This document shows positions 1 through 61,345 of a stretch of 64,000 nucleotides of DNA, one piece after another (position 1 is the stretch's first letter; the number at the start of each line of letters is the position of its first letter). The notes below the pieces were generated by a model. That model worked only from the letters and a program-made list of their open reading frames with translations. It was not told the DNA's origin and searched no databases. Location of the stretch: contig JASANE010000608.1 in the NCBI GenBank assembly GCA_030248225.1, positions 1 to 64,000 of the forward strand, given 5' to 3'. Position numbers and translations under genes: made by a program. The DNA is from Trileptium ribeirensis (Eukaryota; Nematoda; Enoplea; Enoplida; Thoracostomopsidae).

Positions 1-945
1 TTTAGTCGCTACTGGTTTTACGGTGATAGAACATTTCGCGACCGCTTTAGTGTATAAAACGGTCGATATATTTTGTCTGGATCTGCGCTTAATTACATCA
101 AAATATCCGCTGTATTGATCCGATAAACCGCGATTATTCCGCATTACTGCCAAGTGAGGGCCGATTTCCAATGAATTTCGCGGCGTCACTGGCATTTTGA
201 GGTCACGGAATATTATGACACTAAGGTGTTATCAACTTCAATAATAAATAATGCTAAATTTAGCAAAATACGGTTTATACCATAAAGAACTGAAATCATT
301 AATAAGAGTAAATTAATATTATTTTAACGTTTACAAGTGTTACAACCTCAGGCCTCTTCGGCCTAGTACAAAGAGCCATGAATATTATTTCTAACGTTTA
401 CAAGTGTCGCAACCTCAGACCTCTCCGGCCTAGTAGAAACAGACCTCTCTAACCGTCCCATTGCAGCTAAGTAGTGGTATATGTTAACAATCACCAAAAT
501 AGATTATACACGTTTCATGATTCATCGAACAGTCAAAATGGATTGGTCTACAGCACTCTAAATATTCGGATGTTGAGAGGAATCTTCGGCCAATGCCGAA
601 TGGCCTCTTCGGCCAACATTGCCTACCACTACTCGGTACGTACATGAATCGTTGAACATCAGAAATAAACAGAGAACTACCATGGAAATCGTTTAATTAA
701 AACATCGGAAGAACATATTTTTGTTGTGACTACGAACTCAGCTGCGCTGGTTTGTAGATACAGGAACTGCACGAGTTGCAAAGTTCTTACCAAGAATTAC
801 AAAGAAACTGCAAATAATACATTATATATTATTGAAAAGGGCCCAGATAATGTTAAAATTTATAGAAGTGCAACATTATTTATTTTTTTTAAATATTACA
901 AGAAGTTGTTGTATATATAACTGACTAATTACGTTTGGAATTGGT
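1..945. other. Left flank: repeats and hairpins, no gene
   Basis: No coding potential is visible. Two tandem related blocks (about 324-366 and 391-433) both read taacgtttacaagtg, then a C-rich segment, then a palindrome ending in ggcctagta. Good 5-bp-stem hairpins with a TCTTC loop lie at 350-364 (stem AGGCC) and 601-615 (stem TGGCC), and a mismatched one at 417-431. The 3' LTR of the retroelement to the right would be expected here, but I cannot align this flank to the sequence on the other side of the element. Confidence 0.5.
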
Positions 946-3900
946 TTAACAACGAGTACGTAACTGATATCTATCCAATCCTGGTCGATATGTGGTAGGC
1001 GCTGATCGACTTGGAGATGCCCTTCCCTTTTGATTGCCGCTCAGGGTTTGGTCTCCATGATCACTTAAAACTGATTCGTGATTTTTACCCGTGTCTTCGA
1101 CTTCGACCCAACCAGCGGCGTCGTCTACATCTAGAACATGATCTAGCTCGCCCGGCTCATTCCTCACGTCCTGATCATCATTACGTACCGCTTTTAAACG
1201 ACGCACGTTCACGCGCTTGCTTACAACACGCGTTGATTTCTGTACAGGTTCAATCCACGCTCCGGTTCCATCTGGAGACAGGTTGATTACTCGATAAGGA
1301 CCACGCCAATGTCGACTAAACTTTTTGGACTTGTCAGTGGTTACCGGTACATGCAAATAAACTCTGTCACCCTCCAAGAACGGAAGCCCCCTACTCTTCC
1401 GATCGTGCACACGCTTCTGTCTTGCCTGCGATTTACCGGTCGTTTGAGACGCTATATCCCATGCTGTAGTCAGTTTCAGCGCTATTTCATTTGCGCCACC
1501 ATCACCATGTGATTCTTTCGGACTTTGCATCCACACATCGAGTGGTAGCACAGGATCACGGCCAAAATTAAGGAAGAATGGCGACTCACCAGTAGATTCA
1601 TGTACGCTGGTTCGATAGGCGAAACATATGTACGGCAAAATTTGATCCCAATTATCCTGATTTTGATTAACATACAAACTAACCATGGTTTTCATCGTTC
1701 TACTAAACCGTTCAACCATGCCGTCGCCAGCAGGATGATAAGCTGTGGTATTTAACTTCTTGACACCAAGGAGGCGACAAGTCTCCTGCATAATATTCGA
1801 AACTAAGTTTGAACCTTGGTCTGTCAAAAACCGTGCCGGAACACCAAACCGGCATGCCACCTCTTCAACAAAAATTTTTGCTATAGTGGTTGATACAGTG
1901 TTTGGTAGCGCAAAGCATTCGACCCATTTTGTAAAATAATCCATAAAAACGATTACATGAGTGTTGCCAGACTTTGATTTCGGAAGTGGTCCAACAATGT
2001 CGCACGCGATTTGATACCACGGTGCTATAACTGGAATGGGATGCAATGGTGGTACTGTGTAACGTGCAGGAGCTTTTCGAGTTGCACAGGCTTCACAGCT
2101 ACTACACCATTTTTTGACATCATAGTACATTGATGACCAGTAATATCGAACTGCTACTTTTTGGTATGTCTTCCGAATGCCTAGGTGGCCGCCAAATAAA
2201 TGGTCGTGACACGCATTAAGCACTTGTTTACGTAATTCCTTTGGTACGTAAAGCTGCTTCTGGCCACGAACACTTGACGTTCGAAACAGTATTCCATCCT
2301 TCAAGAACCACGGCTGCTTAAAAGATGGATCCCGAGCAATACAGTCCATTAGCATTGCAGTTTCAGGCTCAGCAAGCTGCAACTGGCGCAGGTCAATGGA
2401 CTGTGCCTGCTGGTCCATCTGCAGTGGCACCAATTCAAGTGTTGACACTGGAGCCAAATATATTTCTTGTTCTTCACCTCTTGTTTTCAACACCTTGTTG
2501 CATACGTCGCACACGACTGTAGTGCCGTCCATCACTGGGAAATCTGCAGAATCTGGTCGTCGAGATAGCGAATCAGCATTAGCATTATCCTTTCCAGCCC
2601 TGTGCACAATTTCCATGTCATATTCTTGCAGCAGCAGAGACCATCGGCTGAGTCTCACATGCGGATCCTTCACCGTTAGAAGCCACTTCAAAGGTTGATG
2701 ATCGGTTATTATGAGAAATTTTCTACCGTATAAATATGGTCGAAAGTGCCGAATTGCCCAAACTACCGCCAATGTTTCACGTTCGATTACTGAGTAGCGT
2801 CGTTCAGCTTTAGTGAGCGTCCTGCTTGCAAAAGAAATAGGATGTTCTTTGTTATCGTCATTCCTTTGGCTCAATACTGCACCAATTGCATCATCACTAG
2901 CATCAGTCTGCACAACAAATTGAGCTGAAAAATTTGGAAATGCCAAAACAGGTGCATTTGACAATAACTGCTTTAATTTGTCAAAAGATTTTTGTGCAGC
3001 CGTTGACCACTGAAATTTTACATGTTTCTTTACCAACGCATGAAGCGGAGCAGCCAATTTTGAAAAACGCCAGATAAACTGACGGTAATAAGATGTCAAT
3101 CCAAGCAAGCTCTGCACTTCCTTAATTGATTTAGGCACGGGCCATTGAACGATTTTTTCCACTTTTGCGCATTCCGGAAACATCCCATCTTTAGATAACA
3201 CGTGACCTAGGAACGGCACCGTTTGTCGACCAAACTGGCATTTTTCGAGTGTTAGCTTCAGATTTGCTAATCGAAGCCGTTCGAATACCATTCTGAGTCG
3301 ATGCAACAGTTCAGTTGGTGTAGAGCCGACTACCAAAATGTCATCCAAATAAACTAAACAAATTTTCCAGTCAAGACCAGCCAAAACATTTTCCATCAGC
3401 CTCTGGAATGTCGCAGGCGCGTTTGTCAGCCCGAAAGGTAACTTGTTATATTCGTACAGTCCTTCAAATGGTACGAAAGCTGTTTTATGTTTACTGCCAG
3501 GGTCCATTGCTATCTGATGATATCCGCTTTTCATATCCAGCGTACAAAAATATTTGGCTTTATCCAGTGTCCCCATTACGTCGTCAATTCTTTTCATGGG
3601 GTAGCTGTCACGTCTAGTTACAGCATTCAATTTCCGGTAGTCAATGCAATATCGCCATTTCCCATTCTTCTTTCTGACTAGCACAGTTGGAGATGCCCAT
3701 TCGCTTGTGGACCGTTGTATTATACCATTTTTTAGCATTTCTTGAATTTGGTTAGCAACTTCTTCCCGCATGGCGAAGGCTGTTCTGTATGGTTTCTGTT
3801 TTATAGGAGTCGCAGATCCTGTATCGATAGTATGGTATATCTTTGTAGCGCAGCGAAGATCATGGTCTCCTTCTGAAAATAAATCTTCGTATTCGAATAA

Positions 3901-4374
3901 TAACGCCTTTAGCTGAAACTTATAGTCATCGTCAAACTCGCACTGATCCAAATTGAGGTTAGCAAATTTCGCATCCGATTGTCGACATGTGGGAGGGCAA
4001 ATTGTTGTTTTCGCTGTGCTACTTGAATAGACTTGTACGTCCATATTCATAACATCTTGGCTATCTATGGCTGACACTTCAGCCACCCTTAGACCATTTC
4101 GTAGAACAACAGGGGCCGTAGTAGGATTGAAGATTCTAACTGGTACAGTATGCTGGTCACCAACCTGGGTTACGGATGGTGCAACGACAGCACCGCACTT
4201 TTCAAATACTTGTGCTAAAGGCTCTAGGAATATTGGTTCAGTTTTCGATGATGAAACCTTTCCTTGTACCACGATTTCAGTTCTTGGAGGCACGTTGACC
4301 GTATCCAACAGTGTTACGTAACCGACTTCAGCGGACCGGCTTCCTATTTTAACTACGTCGCCATTCACGTGCAT
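946..4374 (-). CDS. pol: Pol: reverse transcriptase-RNase H-integrase
   Basis: An uninterrupted 1142-residue ORF. Residues 1-150 look like the region after a retropepsin. Reverse transcriptase spans ~190-390 (first Asp at D280 in TLDMKSGYHQI, YLDD at 342-345). RNase H spans ~480-605 (D491, E531, D558, D601). Integrase has an H-H-C-C zinc finger (~723-760; C757, C760), a DDE core (D792, D852, E888) and a WRGPY motif at ~1023. It would copy the element RNA into DNA and insert it in the host genome. The start ATG overlaps the end of the upstream ORF, which lies in the other frame. A run of six A's (plus strand 4379-4384) just upstream makes a -1 frameshift possible; reinitiation is the alternative. 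All expected catalytic residues are present. This is the best-preserved gene of the element. Confidence 0.96.
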   Translation of the reverse strand: MHVNGDVVKIGSRSAEVGYVTLLDTVNVPPRTEIVVQGKVSSSKTEPIFLEPLAQVFEKCGAVVAPSVTQVGDQHTVPVRIFNPTTAPVVLRNGLRVAEVSAIDSQDVMNMDVQVYSSSTAKTTICPPTCRQSDAKFANLNLDQCEFDDDYKFQLKALLFEYEDLFSEGDHDLRCATKIYHTIDTGSATPIKQKPYRTAFAMREEVANQIQEMLKNGIIQRSTSEWASPTVLVRKKNGKWRYCIDYRKLNAVTRRDSYPMKRIDDVMGTLDKAKYFCTLDMKSGYHQIAMDPGSKHKTAFVPFEGLYEYNKLPFGLTNAPATFQRLMENVLAGLDWKICLVYLDDILVVGSTPTELLHRLRMVFERLRLANLKLTLEKCQFGRQTVPFLGHVLSKDGMFPECAKVEKIVQWPVPKSIKEVQSLLGLTSYYRQFIWRFSKLAAPLHALVKKHVKFQWSTAAQKSFDKLKQLLSNAPVLAFPNFSAQFVVQTDASDDAIGAVLSQRNDDNKEHPISFASRTLTKAERRYSVIERETLAVVWAIRHFRPYLYGRKFLIITDHQPLKWLLTVKDPHVRLSRWSLLLQEYDMEIVHRAGKDNANADSLSRRPDSADFPVMDGTTVVCDVCNKVLKTRGEEQEIYLAPVSTLELVPLQMDQQAQSIDLRQLQLAEPETAMLMDCIARDPSFKQPWFLKDGILFRTSSVRGQKQLYVPKELRKQVLNACHDHLFGGHLGIRKTYQKVAVRYYWSSMYYDVKKWCSSCEACATRKAPARYTVPPLHPIPVIAPWYQIACDIVGPLPKSKSGNTHVIVFMDYFTKWVECFALPNTVSTTIAKIFVEEVACRFGVPARFLTDQGSNLVSNIMQETCRLLGVKKLNTTAYHPAGDGMVERFSRTMKTMVSLYVNQNQDNWDQILPYICFAYRTSVHESTGESPFFLNFGRDPVLPLDVWMQSPKESHGDGGANEIALKLTTAWDIASQTTGKSQARQKRVHDRKSRGLPFLEGDRVYLHVPVTTDKSKKFSRHWRGPYRVINLSPDGTGAWIEPVQKSTRVVSKRVNVRRLKAVRNDDQDVRNEPGELDHVLDVDDAAGWVEVEDTGKNHESVLSDHGDQTLSGNQKGRASPSRSAPTTYRPGLDRYQLRTRC

Positions 4375-6014
4375 TGTATTTTTTCGTAATTCAGTTTTAT
4401 GTCACCCATTTGTTCCATATCATCGCGTCCGATGATCAGAGAATACGGCAAGCTGGGTGTAATGTGTAAATTACCAGCGAAAGTAGAATTTCCTAACCGA
4501 AGTTCTGCCTCCATTTTTCCCACCGTCGGCATCAAGTGACCCGATGCGGAACGAACTGTTTTGTGCATTCTACTAGAAGGATTCGGTTGTTGTGTGGTCA
4601 ACTTTTTAGCAGCTTCAATTGTTATCAATGATATCTCAGCACCCGTATCGACGAGTGCGTGCAATGGCATACGGTTAACATAAACAATAATTGCACCCTC
4701 GATCACCTTCCCTAGTATAGAATTTACTGTCAGATTGAATGGTTGAAATTCGGTTAATTCGTCACGCATTTGTTGTGTATTAACTATAATTTCTGGATCC
4801 TGACAAGTTCCCACATTCCTAGAGATTTCGTTGAAACGTGGTGAACAACGAGATAAAACGATTTGTTGAGGATTGTAAAATCCCTGCATTTTAGTAGCGA
4901 GTCGCTGCCCATAGGAGTTCAGCTGTGTAGCCGAGATCCAGCGACGGAAGCATGTCTTCCACATCACAACTGATGTAACATAGATGCAGCATCCGAAAAT
5001 CCATAGTTGCGTTGGGTCAACGCTGAAACCATATAAAAACCCGAATAGTCCAGTGTCCACTATATTTGTTGCTGCTTTAGATGCCGCATATTTCGAGTGT
5101 CGACCATCTGTCCGTACCCCCAGAAGTTTAAACACTTTTTGCTGATTATTGTATGTGTGCCATAATTCGTTTAGCGATATATGACTACGCATTTCTTCCA
5201 TTCGATACATGATAACTGGGTGGAACAAGAGTTTAGGCAAGGTTAAGATTTTAGGTGTGGACATGAGTTGTGGCAGGCGATTAGCTTTTTGAACTTTATT
5301 TAGCGTTCCAGATCGTTGATAGTAAAATTCTCCTTTGGCTAGTGCGAGTGGAATATCTTCGTGATACCGACAATCTACTTCTCTTGTATGTTGGTGTATT
5401 ATATTTGTCGTGGTATCTAGGTAACCAGTATGATAATTTCCCGTTGCATTAAATCGTATTGGAATTCCTGATGTGCAAGTATCGTTCATTGGTAGAATTT
5501 CAAATTCATGTATCTCATTACAAGGCCAGACCTCGATCAGGTCGCCCCCAGTTGATGCAATAAGGTTGTTGTAGCCCAGAAGGATACGCATTGCTAATGT
5601 AGGATTAGACATAATGTATGATTCGATTAGATCAGAAACTGTTTTCATTCGGTTGCGTGTGGACGACATTGCGTGGTCAAAAGAGAAGGATATCACTTCC
5701 CTTATATGTATTTCTAGCGCTTGCAAGCCGGACGCTAACATTTCCGGAGTTATTATACCCACTGTCTGGTCACGTTTCATCCGTGTCGCAGGACTATCTA
5801 TCTCGTTTGGACTTGACTGCTTATGTGCTTTGAAGTCCGTGTTAACACCGTACTGTTGCTGCAACTCCACTTTCAAGATTTTAAATGGGATTCCTTGATC
5901 ACTCAAGCGAATTTGGTTGCGTTTACAGTCCGTTGCTTTCTTGTTTTGCTCAAATGTGAGCGCTAGAGACGCTTCACTGGACAGCCATTGCCGTCCACGA
6001 AGTTTCCCTTCCAT
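4365..6014 (-). CDS. Envelope-like C-terminal part fused to aspartic protease
   Basis: 549 residues from the first ATG; the frame is open up to the amber codon at 6060-6062 and is the same frame as the preceding ORF. Residues 1-330 are a Cys-containing, mostly extracellular-looking continuation of the envelope-like domain. A membrane segment lies at ~336-352 (LWIFGCCIYVTSVVMW), followed by basic residues. From ~430 comes a retropepsin-type domain with the active-site motif DTGAEIS (D456) and a late LIIGRD motif (~526-531). The protease would cleave the polyprotein. Protease downstream of a membrane protein in the same ORF is unusual. The ORF ends 10 nt inside the pol ORF, in a different frame. 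I could not assign the envelope-like part to a named glycoprotein family. Confidence 0.85.
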   Translation of the reverse strand: MEGKLRGRQWLSSEASLALTFEQNKKATDCKRNQIRLSDQGIPFKILKVELQQQYGVNTDFKAHKQSSPNEIDSPATRMKRDQTVGIITPEMLASGLQALEIHIREVISFSFDHAMSSTRNRMKTVSDLIESYIMSNPTLAMRILLGYNNLIASTGGDLIEVWPCNEIHEFEILPMNDTCTSGIPIRFNATGNYHTGYLDTTTNIIHQHTREVDCRYHEDIPLALAKGEFYYQRSGTLNKVQKANRLPQLMSTPKILTLPKLLFHPVIMYRMEEMRSHISLNELWHTYNNQQKVFKLLGVRTDGRHSKYAASKAATNIVDTGLFGFLYGFSVDPTQLWIFGCCIYVTSVVMWKTCFRRWISATQLNSYGQRLATKMQGFYNPQQIVLSRCSPRFNEISRNVGTCQDPEIIVNTQQMRDELTEFQPFNLTVNSILGKVIEGAIIVYVNRMPLHALVDTGAEISLITIEAAKKLTTQQPNPSSRMHKTVRSASGHLMPTVGKMEAELRLGNSTFAGNLHITPSLPYSLIIGRDDMEQMGDIKLNYEKIQCT

Positions 6015-6059: not shown

Positions 6060-9000
6060 CTATATCAGCACTTTCCCATCCTCGAGCGCACATGCACCTG
6101 AGTGGTAGTCACATTGTGATACGTCGCCAGCAGTGGACTCCGGCATCGATTCGGAATGCCTTTTATATATCTTAGCAGGCATTAGAAAACAGTTAGTTGC
6201 GCGAAATATTTTCCAACGGCAGCAGTGTATGCCACCGCCGGGGTACCACCATTTCAATTTATGATCAGTTGTCCACAAATTGCCGCGCTGCACCAGTGGT
6301 TCATTACCACATTGCTTGTATTGTTTCATCCTGCGACAATCTTCAGCAGTCACGGTTTCCACAATCGTAGTTTCTTCCTTCAAATTTTCATCATTGAAAA
6401 AATACGTAAAGGCTTTAACTTGGTTGGTGATCTTATGACAAAGCCATGCCTCGCTCACGAACTTAATAATATTGTGTTTATACATCCGTACCGTTGCCTC
6501 AACTGGGCGCTGCAATTCGCTACGATTAGATAATTCACAATCTGCTGCTTGCGATAGTCTCCAAATCTGCTTATGCTGTATTGTCTGGCAGACAAGAGGA
6601 TTGGGGAACTTCATCTCGCCCGTTGCACCCATACTGGCGTTTAGGGTTATTAAAAATATGTACCATATTATAATTAAAAGTAAACTGCTAATGCGGTGCT
6701 TAATGCCGCTGCCGGATCGTCGTTGTAGTGATTGGTCCCCAGCTGACACTTGGTTACATGCGTGGTATTGTAGATTATCTGTGCTTTGAGAATTATGGTT
6801 GATAGGAGCATTGATACTTTGATTTCCAGCCTGTTGATTTACTTGACTATCACTTAATGTTCGTTTCCTTTCTATCGTGGCAAGTTCATTTTGTTCACTG
6901 TTTTTGTAGTCTTCTCCAAGTAATTCCAACAGTTTGGATCTAATACGTGCTTCGGCTACATGGCTGATTTCTACTGCTGGCTTTACGAAAGGCTCTACTG
7001 GTTGCACTTGTGATCGGGTTCCTGTTTGCCTTCGTATTTGCCGTAATCTTTCCTGTTCAAATTCGGCTTCAAGCGTTTGCTCTCTTTCTTCGCGAATTTC
7101 GTCAACTAATTGTCGTTGCCTGATTTCACGCTGAGTTATTGGCTGGTATAGCTCAGGCGGATGCTGGTCAGCTTCCGGTAATGCACCATAATCGGGGCTA
7201 GTATTTCCAAATGCAATTCGGCGCCTCACCATAGCTGCCATCATGGCGGAATTTATCCTTTCTTCTACTGGCAGGTGGTTATGTTCTCGCATTTCCGATG
7301 AAGCAAAGCCGAGCACGCGGAATGAAAACGACTCTCCTAGTCGAAACATCCCTTGATCCGTTAAATAGGGGCTGATCGAAATAACTTCCTCCGAGTTTGG
7401 TCCGAACAGGTTATCGTTCTCCAGCATCACACATGTTGTGCCCAGGGGATTTGTTCGTTGCACTACGTTTTCAAGCGTGTGTCGAAAACAGTCCCAAATA
7501 TCTGGTGGCACATCACGACGGTAGGTTATATTTGACCAATAGACACGATCAACTGAGTACGCTATGTTATTCAGCAGGGAGACAACTCGACGTATCGCGC
7601 GCTTTATTTCTATATACAGCCGCTGGTGATGGGACCATCCGATTGCATTCAAGTTGGTCAAGTTGTATGTACCAGCATGTATTATGACACTAACGGGGCC
7701 GTTATCTTGAGGCAAGGACTGCAAAGCCCCTTCTAGTAGTTCATCGACACATTCGATTCGTAGTCCGGAGCGCCACTGTCTTATAGACCCAGGTGTATCC
7801 GTCATCCGTTGTAACTGGTCATCTCCCACAAATATATATTCAATAGGTATATCGGGTTCAGAACCTTGGCGCATCTGGGCCGCCTCCAGGACGTTATTGT
7901 TATGATCATTGTCAAAATGTTCGCCCTCGTTGTCTGTCGGCTCAATAGTCTCCGCTGGTTCCGTGTTTTCCACTTCTTGTTGCACCGACAACGCTGGCAC
8001 CATAGGTGCCGAACCTGGCCCAACTGCTTCCTTCTTCGAATTGCGTTCCTCAATTCGATTTGTAGCGTGCAGGCATTGTATTTGTTCACTAGGGACGGGA
8101 AACCGTTCAGAGCCCGGTTGTACGCGGCGCCATAAATCTGAATTATCGCGACCTACAACAGTGCCCACGAATGCTTCAGCCACAGAGCCACAGGGTTCTT
8201 CATTTTGATTGCAGCGAACCACCGTATTGGTACTGCTATCCGGAATGGTATTACACTGAAAATGAGCCAATGTTGCCGAAGAGGTGTTTCGCGCTGATCG
8301 CCTTGTAGTGCCAGATTCACCAGTAACTCTGGCTTGGTTGCTAAACTGTGAGGCGTTGCCAACTAGTCGTCTACTTAAGGAAACGCCGTGGGTTTGGTTG
8401 GCTCGACAATCACGAGTGTTATGAGTGCTGGTTCGATGAAATTCACAGTACATGCTGCGAACTCGATTACCGTTGCAGGAAATTGCCGTGTGCCCAGCAC
8501 GACCGCATATTTGACAAACCGGTCGATTGTTCAACGTAAAGTGTTGTCGGTCATACATAGGTGAATCGGCATAGGTTTGAGACTGATAATTATTGTGACT
8601 TGCTTCCCGATTGGAACCATGAAAGTTATTACTGGTTCTGCGTGTGATAGCCTGCGATTCCTCAAGTCTACGAGTTGCTTGACGTAACTGTGCGACCTGG
8701 CTCACTAAATCACGAGCCCAATCGCGTGGAGCTGATGAAATAGGTAGCGGCTGTGTAACATCTCTTGCAATTGCTGACACTCCGACTATGGGCGATCCCC
8801 GTCGACCAACGTTAAGTTTCGTCTCAATGCGTTCTGCTGCCAGAATTGCTTCCGCCATAGACTTTGGTCCCATTACTTTAACTTCTTCCCTAATTTCAGG
8901 CTTTAAGCCAGCAATAAATTTATTCCGCAAATTAGTTTGCTTCTCTGAGTCAACAGTCATATAACTAAGTGCTGACTGTGCAAGCTCAGTGAGAGACCGT

Positions 9001-9083
9001 GCGTAGCAGCTCACCGATTCCGTGGAACCCTGGCTCCGTATGTCATATTTGTCGCTCATGTATCTTTTCCGATTATCAGTCAT
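6060..9083 (-). CDS. gag: Gag zinc knuckles + SGNH-like domain + membrane/Cys-rich region
   Basis: 1007 residues from the first ATG; the frame is open back to ~9131. Residues 1-100 continue Gag capsid. Nucleocapsid knuckles are CX2CX4HX4C at 190-203 and a variant CX2HX4HX4C at ~213-226. An acidic linker follows. Residues ~414-600 resemble an SGNH/GDSL hydrolase: YIFVGDDQL (block I; Asp where the nucleophile Ser is expected), VIIHAGTYNL (block III) and TDQGMFRLG (block V), so catalytic residues look degenerate. A charged coiled-coil-like stretch spans ~650-690. A hydrophobic segment at ~798-818 could be a signal or anchor. After it comes a Cys/Trp-rich region with a GGGIHCC motif (~949-955). 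It ends at a TAG codon (6060-6062); the downstream ORF continues in the same frame, so this is read-through or a nonsense mutation. Confidence 0.85.
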   Translation of the reverse strand: MTDNRKRYMSDKYDIRSQGSTESVSCYARSLTELAQSALSYMTVDSEKQTNLRNKFIAGLKPEIREEVKVMGPKSMAEAILAAERIETKLNVGRRGSPIVGVSAIARDVTQPLPISSAPRDWARDLVSQVAQLRQATRRLEESQAITRRTSNNFHGSNREASHNNYQSQTYADSPMYDRQHFTLNNRPVCQICGRAGHTAISCNGNRVRSMYCEFHRTSTHNTRDCRANQTHGVSLSRRLVGNASQFSNQARVTGESGTTRRSARNTSSATLAHFQCNTIPDSSTNTVVRCNQNEEPCGSVAEAFVGTVVGRDNSDLWRRVQPGSERFPVPSEQIQCLHATNRIEERNSKKEAVGPGSAPMVPALSVQQEVENTEPAETIEPTDNEGEHFDNDHNNNVLEAAQMRQGSEPDIPIEYIFVGDDQLQRMTDTPGSIRQWRSGLRIECVDELLEGALQSLPQDNGPVSVIIHAGTYNLTNLNAIGWSHHQRLYIEIKRAIRRVVSLLNNIAYSVDRVYWSNITYRRDVPPDIWDCFRHTLENVVQRTNPLGTTCVMLENDNLFGPNSEEVISISPYLTDQGMFRLGESFSFRVLGFASSEMREHNHLPVEERINSAMMAAMVRRRIAFGNTSPDYGALPEADQHPPELYQPITQREIRQRQLVDEIREEREQTLEAEFEQERLRQIRRQTGTRSQVQPVEPFVKPAVEISHVAEARIRSKLLELLGEDYKNSEQNELATIERKRTLSDSQVNQQAGNQSINAPINHNSQSTDNLQYHACNQVSAGDQSLQRRSGSGIKHRISSLLLIIIWYIFLITLNASMGATGEMKFPNPLVCQTIQHKQIWRLSQAADCELSNRSELQRPVEATVRMYKHNIIKFVSEAWLCHKITNQVKAFTYFFNDENLKEETTIVETVTAEDCRRMKQYKQCGNEPLVQRGNLWTTDHKLKWWYPGGGIHCCRWKIFRATNCFLMPAKIYKRHSESMPESTAGDVSQCDYHSGACALEDGKVLI

Positions 9084-9121: not shown

Positions 9122-9805
9122 TCAGTTTGTCTGATCCAACCCGTTGTAGACGAACTTGGCGTTTTCAGCTAAATATACACCGAGAAGAAATGGTTTGTTT
9201 TCCTGATTCCAAGCATTGGCCAAAAATTTCACTTCAAATTCGTGTATTCGCCAACTTTCAAAATCATCCCCTTTTTCCCCGCTAAATATAGTTATTGGGA
9301 TGTTTGGTCCACGGGAAGACGTGATCGAATGGATGGTAGCCGTATCCGTTAGCGACTCACTTGCGGCAGCGTTCACAACTGAACCGCCCGTAATCACAGT
9401 TTTAGCTTGAAGTTTCTGTGATTCACTAAGATTGTTATTTAATGTGACTAACGACTCTGTATTTTCAGTGACGATTGTGTTAATATGTTTGAGATAGTTT
9501 AGTATCTCAGTGTTAGCCGATAGCTGTGTCGGAATATCTAGGCGCAGGAGGATATCGTCCTGTTTTTTCGCGGAATTCTGTATTGTCGTTAAAAGTTTGC
9601 TTTCTAATTTTAACTGGTTTTGTGCTAAATGTTCCAATCGATGCTGTTGCTGCTCAAGGTGTGATATGACAGTGTCTAGCTCAGTTGATAGCTTGTTTTG
9701 TACCGCGGCAAGTTGGACATCTAGTTGTATTAATGTGCGCTGTTGTCCACGTGCGTCGCGAGCACTGGCATCAGATCCCCGTCTAGGTTGATTGGTGGCC
9801 GTACT
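9122..9805 (-). CDS. gag: Gag N-terminal part (no ATG)
   Basis: The frame is open from a TGA at 9806-9808 to a TGA at 9122-9124. It contains no ATG at all; the nearest candidate initiators are an ACG at 9800-9802 and a TTG at 9635-9637. The first ~75 residues are Gln/Leu-rich and look like a coiled coil. The last ~55 have the look of a retrotransposon capsid N-terminus (PITIFSG, DDFESW, LLGVYL, YNGL). The capsid continues in the next ORF, which is in the -1 frame; the switch point lies at about 9120-9135. Translation must start at a non-ATG codon or on a spliced leader exon, or this copy is damaged. Confidence 0.7.
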   Translation of the reverse strand, partial: STATNQPRRGSDASARDARGQQRTLIQLDVQLAAVQNKLSTELDTVISHLEQQQHRLEHLAQNQLKLESKLLTTIQNSAKKQDDILLRLDIPTQLSANTEILNYLKHINTIVTENTESLVTLNNNLSESQKLQAKTVITGGSVVNAAASESLTDTATIHSITSSRGPNIPITIFSGEKGDDFESWRIHEFEVKFLANAWNQENKPFLLGVYLAENAKFVYNGLDQTN

Positions 9806-9846
9806 TCACTTTATAAAATTGTTAACCAGTATCTAACGTATCCGTA

Positions 9847-9864
9847 ATCCCTCCGTTGCCACCA
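9847..9864 (-). promoter_or_regulatory. Primer-binding site for reverse transcription
   Basis: On the element strand the site reads TGGTGGCAACGGAGGGAT. Its complement ends in ...GTTGCCACCA, which has the shape of a mature tRNA 3' end: CCA, discriminator A and an acceptor strand CGTTGCC. It sits one base after a TTACA that would close the 5' LTR (9866-9870). The tRNA species was not identified. Confidence 0.7.
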
Positions 9865-9865
9865 A

Positions 9866-10560
9866 TGTAACGCCTCCGAATTGGATTTCACGTTCGGGTT
9901 ACTGGTACTGCTAAATCGGTGCGTCCTCTTCGGACGGTTCAGTAATGCCTTCTGCAGGCAGGGCTTGTCCTCTGCGGACAGCGAGCTACGCGTCCTCTTC
10001 GGGCGGTTCTGTTATGCCTTCTGCAGGCAGTTCTTGTCCTCGGCGGACAAATAGTTCCGATTGGTTTTACTGCTTTCTGCAAGCAATGATGCGCACATGT
10101 AACAAGCTAGGAGTAGTTTGTTTTATTTCAGAACGCCAAAGATTAAATGATACAATATATCAAAACTGCTTTCTTCAAGCAGGGTAATATCGATGCAGCA
10201 AAACAGCGATGCTTCGTAATTAAAACTAGCTGGATGTATGAGTGGCTAATTAGCAAAATTATTGCTGCACCGATTATTTTATACCACAATTACTAAAATG
10301 TCAAGAACACAAAAACTTCACATGCAAAGGGCAACAATTTTACCAATAGTCAAAACAACAAAATTTAAGAAGCCCTGACATTTAAATTTCAAGGAATCGC
10401 ATAAAGCGAAGCGATAGTTCACAGTTACAAAGCGTCTAACAAATTACAATCGTTCAACTACAATTATTCAGCAAGATAGGGATTGTTACAATAAACAGCC
10501 ACAACTGATGAAATTACAGTTTTGGAAAAATTTCTACTGACGGAGCCGCAAGAATTAATC
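9866..10560 (-). repeat. Presumed 5' LTR/leader of the gypsy element
   Basis: Placed next to the primer-binding site. On the element strand its inner end is GGCGTTACA. It contains the hairpin array at 9922-10181. The outer end is a guess, as no second copy is recognisable at the other side of the element. It has no ORF of interest. Confidence 0.35.
9922..10181 (-). repeat. Array of eight 15-nt hairpins with pentaloops
   Basis: Hairpins lie at 9922-9936, 9946-9960, 9966-9980, 9991-10005, 10015-10029, 10035-10049, 10071-10085 and 10167-10181. Each has a 5-bp stem and a 5-nt loop. Stems differ (plus strand CGTCC, TGCCT, TGTCC, TGCTT), always with matching partners or a G-U. Loops are constant: TCTTC, TCTGC or TCGGC, that is GAAGA, GCAGA or GCCGA in element RNA. 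The first three form a 69-bp block repeated as the next three. Confidence 0.85.
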
Positions 10561-10724: not shown

Positions 10725-11860
10725 TCTGGTTCCGGGATCAGGGGTCAAAATGTGGGTTTTCTGCCCCATTTTACCCCATTTTAGTGCCATTCACGGAAGT
10801 TATTAATGTTATTCTTACCGTAACTTTCGAGTTTTTTCTCTGGATGGGTTTTTCATAGTAAAATGATAAATGCCGATTCCTCCTTTTTTTGTTTTTCGAT
10901 TAAGGCTCCGGTACTGGATTTATGGGGTTTGAGGTACGGGGGTATGGTTCCACGACCCAAAATATGGAAATTTGTTCTGACGTGTTGCATGGCTGATAAG
11001 TTTTGGGATTTTTGGGCATGGGAAAACTCATTGCCGATGCTGGTTTCGCTCTGTGACCCACGGTTTCATGGGTACGGGTGTATGACGCCCCATGGTTCGG
11101 GGTTAGAGGTGAAAATGAGGGTTTTTCACCCTATTTTAGTACTTTCCACGGAAGCAAGGTTATTTTCATCGTAACTTTCGAATTTTTTCTCTGGATGGTT
11201 TTATTTCATAGTGAAATGATAAATGCCGATGCCTGTTTTTTTGCTTTTCGATTAAGGCTCCGGTTCTGGAGTTATGGGGTTTGAGGTATGGCACCATCGT
11301 GGTTCCTCGGCCCAAAATTAGAAAATTTGTTCTGACTTCCTGGACGGCTGAAAAGTTTGACTTGGGGGTTTTCGGGCATGGGAAACTCATTGCCAGCGTT
11401 GGTTTTACTCTGTTTCCCATGGTTCCATGGGTACGGAGGTATGGCGCCCCCATGGTTCGGGGTCAGGAGTCAAAATGAGGGTTATTTCACCCCATTTTAT
11501 TACCCTTCACGGACCAAGCATATTTCTATTTTAACTTCCGAATTTTTTCTTTGGTTTGTTTTATTTTATAGTAAACTGATCAATGCCAATGCCACTTTTT
11601 TTTGTTTATCGATTAAAGCTATGGTTGGGGAGTTATGGGGTTTGAGGTATGACACCCTTGTGTTTCTCCGACCCAAAATTCGAATATTTGTTGTGACGTC
11701 CTTGGCGGCTGAAAAGCTTTCTTGGGTGTTTTCGCGCATGGCAAACTCATTGCTGGTGTTGATTTTGCTCTGCGATCCATAGTTCTATATGTACGGGGGT
11801 GTGGCGCCGCCATAGTTCATTGACCCAAAATTCCTAATTTTACGTTACGTCCAGTAACGT
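10725..11860. repeat. ~355-bp tandem repeat, about three copies
   Basis: The segment aaatgataaatgccgat recurs at 10861, 11214 and (diverged) 11573, giving periods of 353 and ~359. Each unit has a tttttcgattaaggctc stretch, a mtggggtttgaggta stretch and a GGGTACGG stretch. The first and last units are partial. Long open frames here are by-products of the repeat, not genes. Confidence 0.85.
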
Positions 11861-17842: not shown

Positions 17843-17874
17843 TAGGAATCTCGTTAATCCATTCATGCGCGTCC

Positions 17875-17914
<40 letters not shown>

Positions 17915-18883
17915 GATAGTTACTCCCGCCGTTTACCCGCGCTTGGTTGAACTTCTTCACTTTGACATTCAGAACACTGGGCAGAAATTAAATAGTGGGT
18001 CGGGGCCAATAAGCTACTGCGAAGTACCTCTCCAAACCCAGCCGACCGGTTACAACTTATTGATATACGCAGAAATGACAAAGGTCTTGCGAGTTTCACA
18101 TGGCCTACAATAGGATCAACAATTTATTAATAAAGGATTGCCAATGATCAAATCAATATGGCACAAGTAATATACGGCAACAAAGGTAAAGTTACGTGGT
18201 TGTATAATACATAATTGTAGACATTTTCAATTACTGATCTCATAACAATAGTTAACGCGGACATAACGGCAAATTAATCAAGAAAGCGACAAAGGGGTTT
18301 TAGAACAATGAATTGTACCTTTATGGCAACAATGAATAGTACAATGGGGTATGCAATAAGGGTAACAATGAACAATAATGGACAACAGGGTACATAATAG
18401 TAATAGCGATGAACGGAATTGGACCAACAGATTATACAATGATAATAACGATGAATGGTACATCATTTGCAATTCGTACAGGTATAACAAGATACTACAG
18501 CACCAAATTATACACACATACTCGTTTGGGAAAAGAACATCTGATATTCATTCAAAACCGTTGAGTTAAACAGTCAATTTCGGTGGCGGTCCGAGGCTGA
18601 AATTCATATGTTGCCCATTGTACTGTGCTAAGGATTAATGTATCTCGTAACGACCCAGAATGGATCTGTTACAATATTTTGATGCTTATTAAGCTTTTTT
18701 GCACAGTAATTTCGGTTGTTCTTTCACAGCTGTTTACGTCAATTTAAGTTTAAACGATAACGATAGCGAAAATCATTTTATATAGTCTTACAGATTGTAA
18801 AGGTTATTGGTAACCCACTATTCTATCTAATCACATCCGGCTGCAAACAGCCTAATATATGATTTATTTTCAAATTGATATAG
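11861..18883. other. No gene recognised
   Basis: Stop codons are dense in all frames. I searched for exons of the N-terminal EFTUD2 GTPase domain and saw none. A weak two-copy tandem similarity (about 15,568-15,925, shared 'ataactcata' and 'gaaagact/gaaagatt' words) and AT-only palindromic sequence near 16,760-16,850 are present. Diverged exons could be hidden here. Confidence 0.5.
15509..15540. other. Strong 12-bp stem hairpin
   Basis: The arms aaacctgagcgg and ccgctcgggttt pair over 12 bp with one G-U, around an 8-nt loop. It is flanked by AT-rich sequence. In bacteria this would be read as a terminator. Here its role is unknown; no gene ends nearby. Confidence 0.6.
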
Positions 18884-60704: not shown

Positions 60705-61345
60705 ACCAAGTCATATCTACGCCCCAAGTGTACCACGTAAAGCTTTCCGCTTCAAGTAGTCATATGTTTTGTCTCAAGGCTAACTAAGCCTAATCCAAAG
60801 GTTAGCATTTGCCCGTAATTAATCTAATTAACCAAGTCATATCTACGCCCCAAGTGTATATACCACGTAAAGCTTTCCGCTTCAAGTAGTCATATGTTTT
60901 GTCTCAAGGCTAACTAAGCCTAATCCAAAGGTTAGCATTTGCCCGTAATTAATCTAATTAACCAAGTCATATCTACGCCCCAAGTGTATATACCACGTAA
61001 AGCTTTCCGCTTCAAGTAGTCATATGTTTTGTCTCAAGGCTAACTAAGCCTAATCCAAAGGTTAGCATTTGCCCGTAATTAATCTAATTAACCAAGTCAT
61101 ATCTACGCCCCAAGTGTATATACCACGTAAAGCTTTCCGCTTCAAGTAGTCATATGTTTTGTCTCAAGGCTAACTAAGCCTAATCCAAAGGTTAGCATTT
61201 GCCGTAATTAATCTAATTAACCAAGTCATATCTACGCCCCAAGTGTATATACCACGTAAAGCTTTCCGCTTCAAGTAGTCATATGTTTTGTCTCTAGGCT
61301 AACTAAGCCTAATCCAAAGGTTAGCATTTGCCCGTAATTAATCTT
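60705..61345 (+). repeat. Five-copy ~130-bp tandem array with 18S-like segment
   Basis: Units start at 60,705, 60,831, 60,961, 61,091 and 61,220 and are nearly identical. The first lacks 4 bp (tata), the fourth lacks one C, and the fifth has one substitution (ctctagg). Each unit contains agtagtcatatg, two bases, ttgtctcaa and then taagcc, matching the 5' end of eukaryotic 18S rRNA. The rest of the unit is not rRNA-like. Confidence 0.92.

Follow-up and report, generated by a model that had tools for sequence, protein, structure and literature searches.

The window, that is, the whole stretch of 64,000 nucleotides that was analysed, forms the start of contig C400 in the 687-Mb assembly of Trileptium ribeirensis and carries a Ty3/gypsy-type retroelement on its minus strand. 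The order of the Pfam domains on that strand (protease, reverse transcriptase, RNase H, integrase) fits the Ty3/gypsy elements (Metaviridae), as do a pair of long terminal repeats (LTRs) with TG..CA ends and a primer binding site (PBS) that is placed by position only. The window holds the 5' LTR, while its own 3' LTR falls beyond the contig start; both LTRs are present on the sibling contig C433, where the 5' LTR is cut by the contig end. The parts of the element are as follows.

946..4374, minus strand: pol open reading frame with reverse transcriptase, RNase H and integrase of the Ty3/gypsy type (Pfam)
4365..6014, minus strand: open reading frame with a retroviral-type aspartyl protease at its C-terminus (Pfam)
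6060..9083, minus strand: gag-containing open reading frame with CCHC-like knuckles, read by eye (translation; no Pfam family)
9122-9637, minus strand: N-terminal part of gag, in another frame than 6060..9083 (translation)
9845..9865, minus strand: probable PBS TTGGTGGCAACGGAGGGATTA, directly inside the LTR (sequence position)
9866..10490, minus strand: 5' LTR of 625 bp, in RNA sense TGTAACAATCC...GGCGTTACA, with the terminal inverted repeat TGTAAC/GTTACA (unit common to five other places in the genome, 98-99% identical)
10122..10127, minus strand: AATAAA, possible poly(A) signal at LTR position 364 (pattern only)
10277..10283, minus strand: TATA-like box TATAAAA at LTR position 208 (pattern only)

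The gag-containing frame resembles pieces of relatives at the same place. Besides gag and its knuckles, this frame holds several hundred residues, including a hydrophobic stretch, for which neither a Pfam family nor a database homologue was found. A protein search with the gag frame gave no match at 1e-4 among 7987 scored candidates. With pol, the best 120 of 5023 candidates were distant Ty3/gypsy-type proteins with a top identity of 45%, and a pol search of viral contigs found no relative. Many relatives have an open frame of 2800-3400 aa around pol.

A genome search with 9880-10200 returned six places including the window's own, at 98-100% identity, and the ends of the repeated unit are sharp in three of the five other places. 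As C433 contains two copies of the unit 11.3 kb apart, one adjoining gag and the other beyond the stretch that matches the 3' UTR of the window, the unit at 9866-10490 is identified as the LTR. This mapping rejects an array internal to the element. A preliminary sequence-only reading of the window had assigned its hairpins to the leader of a retroelement; their place is the LTR and not an internal leader, but the assignment holds for the RNA if the TATA-like box at LTR position 208 is used, in which case all eight would belong to the RNA leader. The box reads CATAAAA in two of the six LTR copies. If the AATAAA at position 364 serves as the poly(A) signal, hairpin 1 would lie in R and the rest in U5. 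All eight hairpins are downstream of the TATA-like box and the last of them stands 56 nt before the probable PBS, a near-identical sequence to which also follows the LTR of the relative C2379.

The eight hairpins were found where the sequence-only reading had put them and with the RNA-sense loops GAAGA, GCAGA and GCCGA that it had described. They span LTR positions 310-569, and three more (350-615) sit in the 3' UTR between pol and the 3' LTR. In RNA sense they read as follows.

10167..10181, minus strand: hairpin 1, TGCTT-GAAGA-AAGCA, perfect
10071..10085, minus strand: hairpin 2, TGCTT-GCAGA-AAGCA, perfect
10035..10049, minus strand: hairpin 3, TGTCC-GCCGA-GGACA, perfect; the sole non-GNRNA loop of the eight
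10015..10029, minus strand: hairpin 4, TGCCT-GCAGA-AGGCA, perfect
9991..10005, minus strand: hairpin 5, CGCCC-GAAGA-GGACG, A.C mismatch at pair 3; the same in six LTR copies
9966..9980, minus strand: hairpin 6, TGTCC-GCAGA-GGACA, perfect
9946..9960, minus strand: hairpin 7, TGCCT-GCAGA-AGGCA, perfect
9922..9936, minus strand: hairpin 8, CGTCC-GAAGA-GGACG, perfect
601..615, minus strand: 3'-UTR hairpin TGGCC-GAAGA-GGCCA, perfect
417..431, minus strand: 3'-UTR hairpin AGGCC-GGAGA-GGTCT, G.U at pair 3 in RNA sense; G-C in the sibling C433
350..364, minus strand: 3'-UTR hairpin AGGCC-GAAGA-GGCCT, perfect

Seven of the eight LTR hairpins are perfect, and the eighth, at 9991, contains a G.T pair on the plus strand that corresponds to an A.C mismatch in the RNA sense of the element. 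The loop is GNRNA in seven of the eight, one of these being the hairpin with the A.C pair. Such a density is not equalled in shuffled sequence: between 9880 and 10220 there are seven perfect hairpins with the loop TCNNC (GNNGA in RNA sense), where 5000 dinucleotide shuffles average 0.004 and never reach seven, and after removal of the second duplicate described below there are still five against 0.004, again reached by no shuffle. In the stretch 1-945 two perfect hairpins are found where 0.011 are expected, and none of 5000 shuffles reaches two. The loop size is equally restricted, as the perfect 5-bp stems in 9880-10220 comprise eight with 5-nt loops, two with 7-nt loops, and none with any other loop size in the range from 3 to 11. 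Both of the 7-nt-loop stems coincide with two of the eight hairpin places, and one of the 5-nt-loop stems (10148) has a different loop and stands outside the family.

Six of the eight hairpins are a set of three and its duplicate, contained in a 69-nt tandem duplication (9921-9980/9990-10049, 90% identical). Tandem duplication seems to be the way in which the arrays expand. In the 3' UTR, the hairpins at 350 and 417 fall in a 67-nt tandem duplication of their own (322-375/389-442, 87%). The leader RNA as a whole folds with a z-score of -2.45 relative to shuffles in sense and of -0.93, hardly more stable than the shuffles, in antisense; its minimum-energy fold omits some of the hairpins and merges them into longer pairings. 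A scan of the window with Rfam 15 at the gathering score found no hairpin family and returned solely a eukaryotic 28S rRNA fragment (17857-17988, minus strand).

Among the six LTR copies, private uncompensated stem changes are present in C12824 (three), in C20004 (one, besides a loop change) and in the 5' LTR of C433 (one), and the 3'-UTR hairpins of the relative C16760 are broken. This goes against the sequence-only reading, which had taken sibling copies with uncompensated stem mutations as a refutation of its claim, and here the closest LTRs, at 98-99% identity, do carry them. Since diverged families do compensate, these mutations are read here as the probable neutral decay of single insertions.

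More distant copies were reached through pol, with a search that gave 40 scored matches among 10,315 candidates at 53-100% identity, the window's own included. Twenty of the 3' flanks (61,156 bases) were examined, chosen without regard to hairpins; no LTR was located in several of them. The relatives are of the Ty3/gypsy type and from the same genome, with pol 61-83% and gag 54-76% identical where measured. GC-rich GNRNA hairpins occur in five of the 20 flanks (C3385, C433, C16371, C10784 and C15173, the last with a single hairpin in a short, cut-off flank), and four other flanks contain one lone perfect AT-rich hairpin each, which was counted as background. Over all 20 flanks, perfect GNRNA hairpins number 32 in element sense and 5 in antisense.

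The loop rule changed with these relatives. C3385 (pol 74%) gave a first impression of having no hairpins, but it has six; their loops GAATA, GGAAA and GGATA rule out GNNGA and lead to GNRNA. The constant GNNGA loop of the sequence-only reading thus fits the eight hairpins of the window but is not the general rule in its relatives. In the LTR of C16371 the loops are GAATA, GCACA (three times), GAACA and GAGCA, and once the pentaloop is replaced by a GAAA tetraloop on the same stem. The fourth loop base is G in the window, C433, C10784 and C12384 and is not G in the LTRs of C3385 and C16371. The idea that it forms a family-specific code is weakened by C2379, whose array aligns with that of C3385 and has T, C, G, T, T and T there, and by C5084, with mixed bases as well. 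Across six stretches picked for bearing hairpins (11,545 nt, window pieces included), 30 of the 45 perfect hairpins with 5-bp stems and 5-nt loops have GNRNA loops, compared with a mean of 0.45 and a maximum of 4 in 500 shuffles, while 2 fall in the mirror class TNYNC. In the LTRs of C3385 and C16371 the first hairpins, TGCTT-GAATA-AAGCA, include AATAAA within loop and stem (sense positions 2421 and 2467 in C3385, locus L037, and 3120 in locus L046), which gives the impression of a poly(A) signal concealed by the hairpin.

Genome-wide, the pattern TGCYTGNRNAARGCA has 380 matches, its mirror 119, and the pattern with an identical stem but swapped loop ends 82, so that the GNRNA form is enriched. 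Among the first 100 of the 380 places, 69 stems are matched and 31 mispaired (C/A or T/G). Another place lies within 500 nt on the same strand for 37 of the 69 matched stems, which include the window, C433 and C3385 themselves as well as satellite-like, evenly spaced repeats on C942 and C2074, and for 3 of the 31 mispaired ones. The count for a further pattern, TGYCCGNRNAGGRCA (268 vs 39), was set aside, many of the listed places being other repeats (TGCCCGTGTAGGACA, TGCCCGTAAAGGGCA). When the window and 43 of 70 loci (259,846 bases) were scanned with a covariance model of the hairpin, there were 62 matches at E-values up to 0.5, all inside such arrays and in element sense; 41 of these are training rows and 11 of the other 21 come from the sibling C433.

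The stems covary. In a set of 41 hairpins (39 distinct) from five families, with rows picked to have at least four of five pairs, 95.9% of the cells are paired, a value inflated by this choice of rows, as compared with 27-47% in slid controls. Shuffles that ignore relatedness give 13.3 cells changed on both sides and a covariation score of 0.276, where the hairpins give 50 and 0.695; none of 500 shuffles reaches either value. By contrast, both-side change is seen in four of the five stem pairs, no more than the 3.4 of the shuffles (reached by 245 of 500).

Individual hairpins were also matched between arrays in four comparisons (C3385/C5084, C16371/C3092, C3092/C6823 and C10784/C12384, with C3092 in two of them), which gave 22 hairpin pairs and 110 stem pairs. 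The matching by order, spacing and alignment was judged by eye, a C5084 hairpin that has a broken pair was included on the basis of the alignment and not of the detector, and four TGCCT hairpins of C16371 and two of C3092 were omitted because they have no one-to-one match. The 110 stem pairs divide into 81 that are the same, 15 that changed on both sides and are still paired, 5 that changed on one side to or from G.U, and 9 that fail to pair in one or both rows. Changes on both sides thus number 16, of which 15 keep the pair, where 6.3 would be expected if the two sides varied independently within each comparison. C3385 with C5084 contributes 11 both-side changes against 4.8 expected, and this one comparison accounts for 11 of the 15 compensated changes. 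In the 22 matched loops, positions 1 and 5 are unchanged in all, position 3 in 21, position 2 in 18 and position 4 in 16, which is the pattern of drift of a GNR(N)A loop. Selection on the RNA structure of the hairpins, as the sequence-only reading had claimed, is therefore well supported, most strongly by the covariation across families.

Arrays of different motifs occupy the same place in some other LTR families that lack GNRNA arrays, two clearly and one weakly. In that part of its LTR, C15270 has a CGCCGT..ACGGG type in five copies, and C20159 is 98.6% identical to it there; C19557 and C5670 have eight and nine copies, respectively, of CGGAC..CGKYTG or near it. The motifs of C15270, C19557 and C5670 do not occur on the opposite strand and reach at most 1 in shuffles; the LTRs used for the counts of these other classes (B, C and D) had also served to draw their patterns by eye. 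C14712 may carry an array of a GCGC type (class D), weakly supported by a palindromic pattern that scores 9 on both strands, and C2769/C9688 show an LTR-like unit in which no clear array was found. Genome-wide, the CGCCGT..ACGGG-like pattern has 16 matches vs 2, eight of the 16 being in C15270 and C20159, and the CGGAC..CGKYTG-like pattern 1647 vs 444, a count swollen by tandem repeats such as that on C1202. There, at 1262-2209, a long tandem array of CGGACGCAATGTCGTCTG with a spacing of mostly 26-30 bp is seen among the listed matches to the other LTR motif.

The class of hairpin does not follow the pol tree, which makes a fixed match of Gag to hairpin doubtful: the pol sisters C16371 and C19557 carry GNRNA and another motif, respectively, and pol is near-identical in C10784 (GNRNA) and C14712 (perhaps another motif). 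C10784 and C12384 are about 97% identical in 3' UTR and U3, 54% in gag and widely different in pol. Their identity stops no more than a few bases from the first U5 hairpin, and beyond this point each has five hairpins with unlike spacers; an earlier view that C10784 took over the LTR of C12384 whole was corrected accordingly. In reverse transcription, U5 is derived from the 5' end of the RNA, together with gag, and U3 from the 3' end. As U5 and U3 stem from opposite ends of the RNA, the pattern is the expected trace of template exchange and is consistent with a recombinant lineage in which U5 was kept with gag. The shared stretch extends over sense 1325-3511 of L057 and 1325-3511 of L058, and a further copy lies on C11970.

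The lambdoid phages (lambda, P22) provide the closest likeness in shape, as their boxB also consists of a 5-bp stem with a 5-nt GNR(N)A loop. GAAGA is a lambda boxB loop. The geometry noted by the sequence-only reading is thus borne out, with GNRNA in the related arrays in general and the one GAAA tetraloop mentioned above, while the arginine-rich-peptide mechanism that it drew from boxB finds no support of its own. boxB pentaloops are described as GNRA-like, and in the GACAA loop of P22 the looped-out base touches the N peptide (PMC12550061). In contrast to boxB, the fourth loop base drifts between matched hairpins here, and the hairpins come in eight copies plus three, with no N protein or antitermination to be expected. 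The phage context with its N protein is absent: as the hairpins belong to a eukaryotic LTR element with RVT_1/rve genes, they are boxB-like in shape and not a boxB. The Csy4 repeat hairpin has a similar stem length and GNRNA loop. CRISPR repeat hairpins, the targets of Cas6-type nucleases, differ from the present ones in that these lie in an LTR and lack a repeat-spacer architecture. A GNRA-like pentaloop is reported for a CRISPR RNA in which the looped-out base, between n4 and n5, contacts Cas6 (PMC12550061). No paper combining two of Csy4, pentaloop and GUAUA was found in the open-access literature.

Retroviral and Ty packaging signals (Psi) are elements of the 5' leader, where the present array is predicted to lie, and are bound by Gag, in MMTV with a purine loop and the PBS domain (PMC8096270). 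Unlike the present arrays, many near-identical copies of one U5 hairpin are not described in the parts of these accounts considered here. For long R regions of retroviruses, conservation has been linked to stem-loops (Benachenhou et al. 2013, PMC3601003); the relevant portion of that work, on conserved LTR modules of Ty3/gypsy elements and retroviruses, describes no arrays of repeated hairpins. Among the titles listed in searches of the open-access literature, none concerned repeated GNRA-type hairpins in LTRs.

Calculation establishes the hairpins, their bias towards element sense, their place in the LTR, the conservation of loop positions 1, 3 and 5, and the compensated stem changes. A role in protein binding, for Gag packaging or regulation, is plausible, as had been suggested from the window alone. 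RNA synthesis would start at the TATA-like box, bringing the array in R-U5 of the LTR into the 5' leader of the genomic RNA of the element, with the smaller set in its 3' UTR. Each 5-bp stem with its GNR(N)A pentaloop would fold like a GNRA tetraloop from which one base points outwards, as it does in phage boxB, and copies would multiply by tandem duplication inside the LTR. The array would then offer a protein multivalent docking; the most likely partner is the nucleocapsid part of the Gag encoded by the element itself, and docking would mark the full-length genomic RNA for packaging; we give this proposal an even chance of being correct. Gag or its nucleocapsid is favoured by the position before the probable PBS with copies in both LTR and 3' UTR, by the knuckle-bearing gag and its apparent linkage to U5, and by the precedents of MMTV Gag and Ty3 nucleocapsid. 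In MMTV, Gag binding and packaging depend on the purine loop (PMC8096270), and Ty3 nucleocapsid is required for RNA packaging (PMC4974528). The 3' UTRs bound by PEG10, a Gag of Ty3/gypsy origin, share no sequence motif, and PEG10 also binds its own mRNA (PMC6450627).

The hairpins might instead be read by a host RNA-binding protein acting on the stability, export, localisation or translation of the element RNA, without Gag as the reader. A shared host protein would explain how one loop rule persists although the gags are only 54% identical, and why the hairpin class is not tied to pol, yet other families in the same host have other motifs at the same place, and one host protein would not serve them all; this reader is on the whole unlikely. 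Lower still in probability is a role in leader translation (ribosome shunting or internal entry) or in reverse transcription (U5 pausing or strand transfer). The array does lie between the predicted cap site and the PBS, in the stretch that is copied first, but neither of these roles alone predicts constant GNRNA loops with drifting stems, and the hairpins in the 3' UTR are not predicted by them.

LTRs hold promoter elements and tandem duplication is evident here, which could suggest that the repeats have no role in RNA and are palindromes to which a transcription factor binds in the DNA, or a by-product of slippage at inverted repeats. This is very improbable, as the half-sites vary around a constant spacer, the reverse of a palindrome bound by a dimer; the spacer is also asymmetric and biased 32 to 5 towards element sense in the 20 flanks, and the U5 arrays of C10784 and C12384 keep their five hairpins each between dissimilar spacers. 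Chance, or the recent duplication of one neutral hairpin, would account for the six of eight hairpins that belong to the 69-nt duplication, but the five that are left without the second duplicate, where shuffles give 0.004, the arrays in other families and the compensated changes reduce its probability to almost nothing.

The docking of Gag could be part of a wider arrangement, in which U5 hairpin arrays are a general and exchangeable recognition module of the Ty3/gypsy elements of this host and serve as family-specific RNA address labels read by the matching Gag. Each LTR family would have about 5-9 copies of its own motif, be it GNRNA, TGCgCCGT..ACGGGCA with a bulged G, CGGACG..CGKYTG or perhaps the GCGC type. 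This extension is speculative and rather improbable as it stands. If the arrays are Gag-binding sites, they represent a natural and many-times-repeated experiment on the labelling of retroelement genomes, with dozens of hairpin variants and known tolerated changes in families that recombine. It would also mean that the pentaloop found in phage boxB, GNR(N)A, is put to use by eukaryotic elements, probably independently. The hairpins are simple, and each can be tested separately for protein binding.

Two further repeats were observed in the window. A 355-bp tandem repeat is present just outside the LTR, at 10769-11818, in about three copies that are 75-80% alike, and a tandem array with a unit of roughly 129 bp and 96-99% identity occupies 60705-61344.
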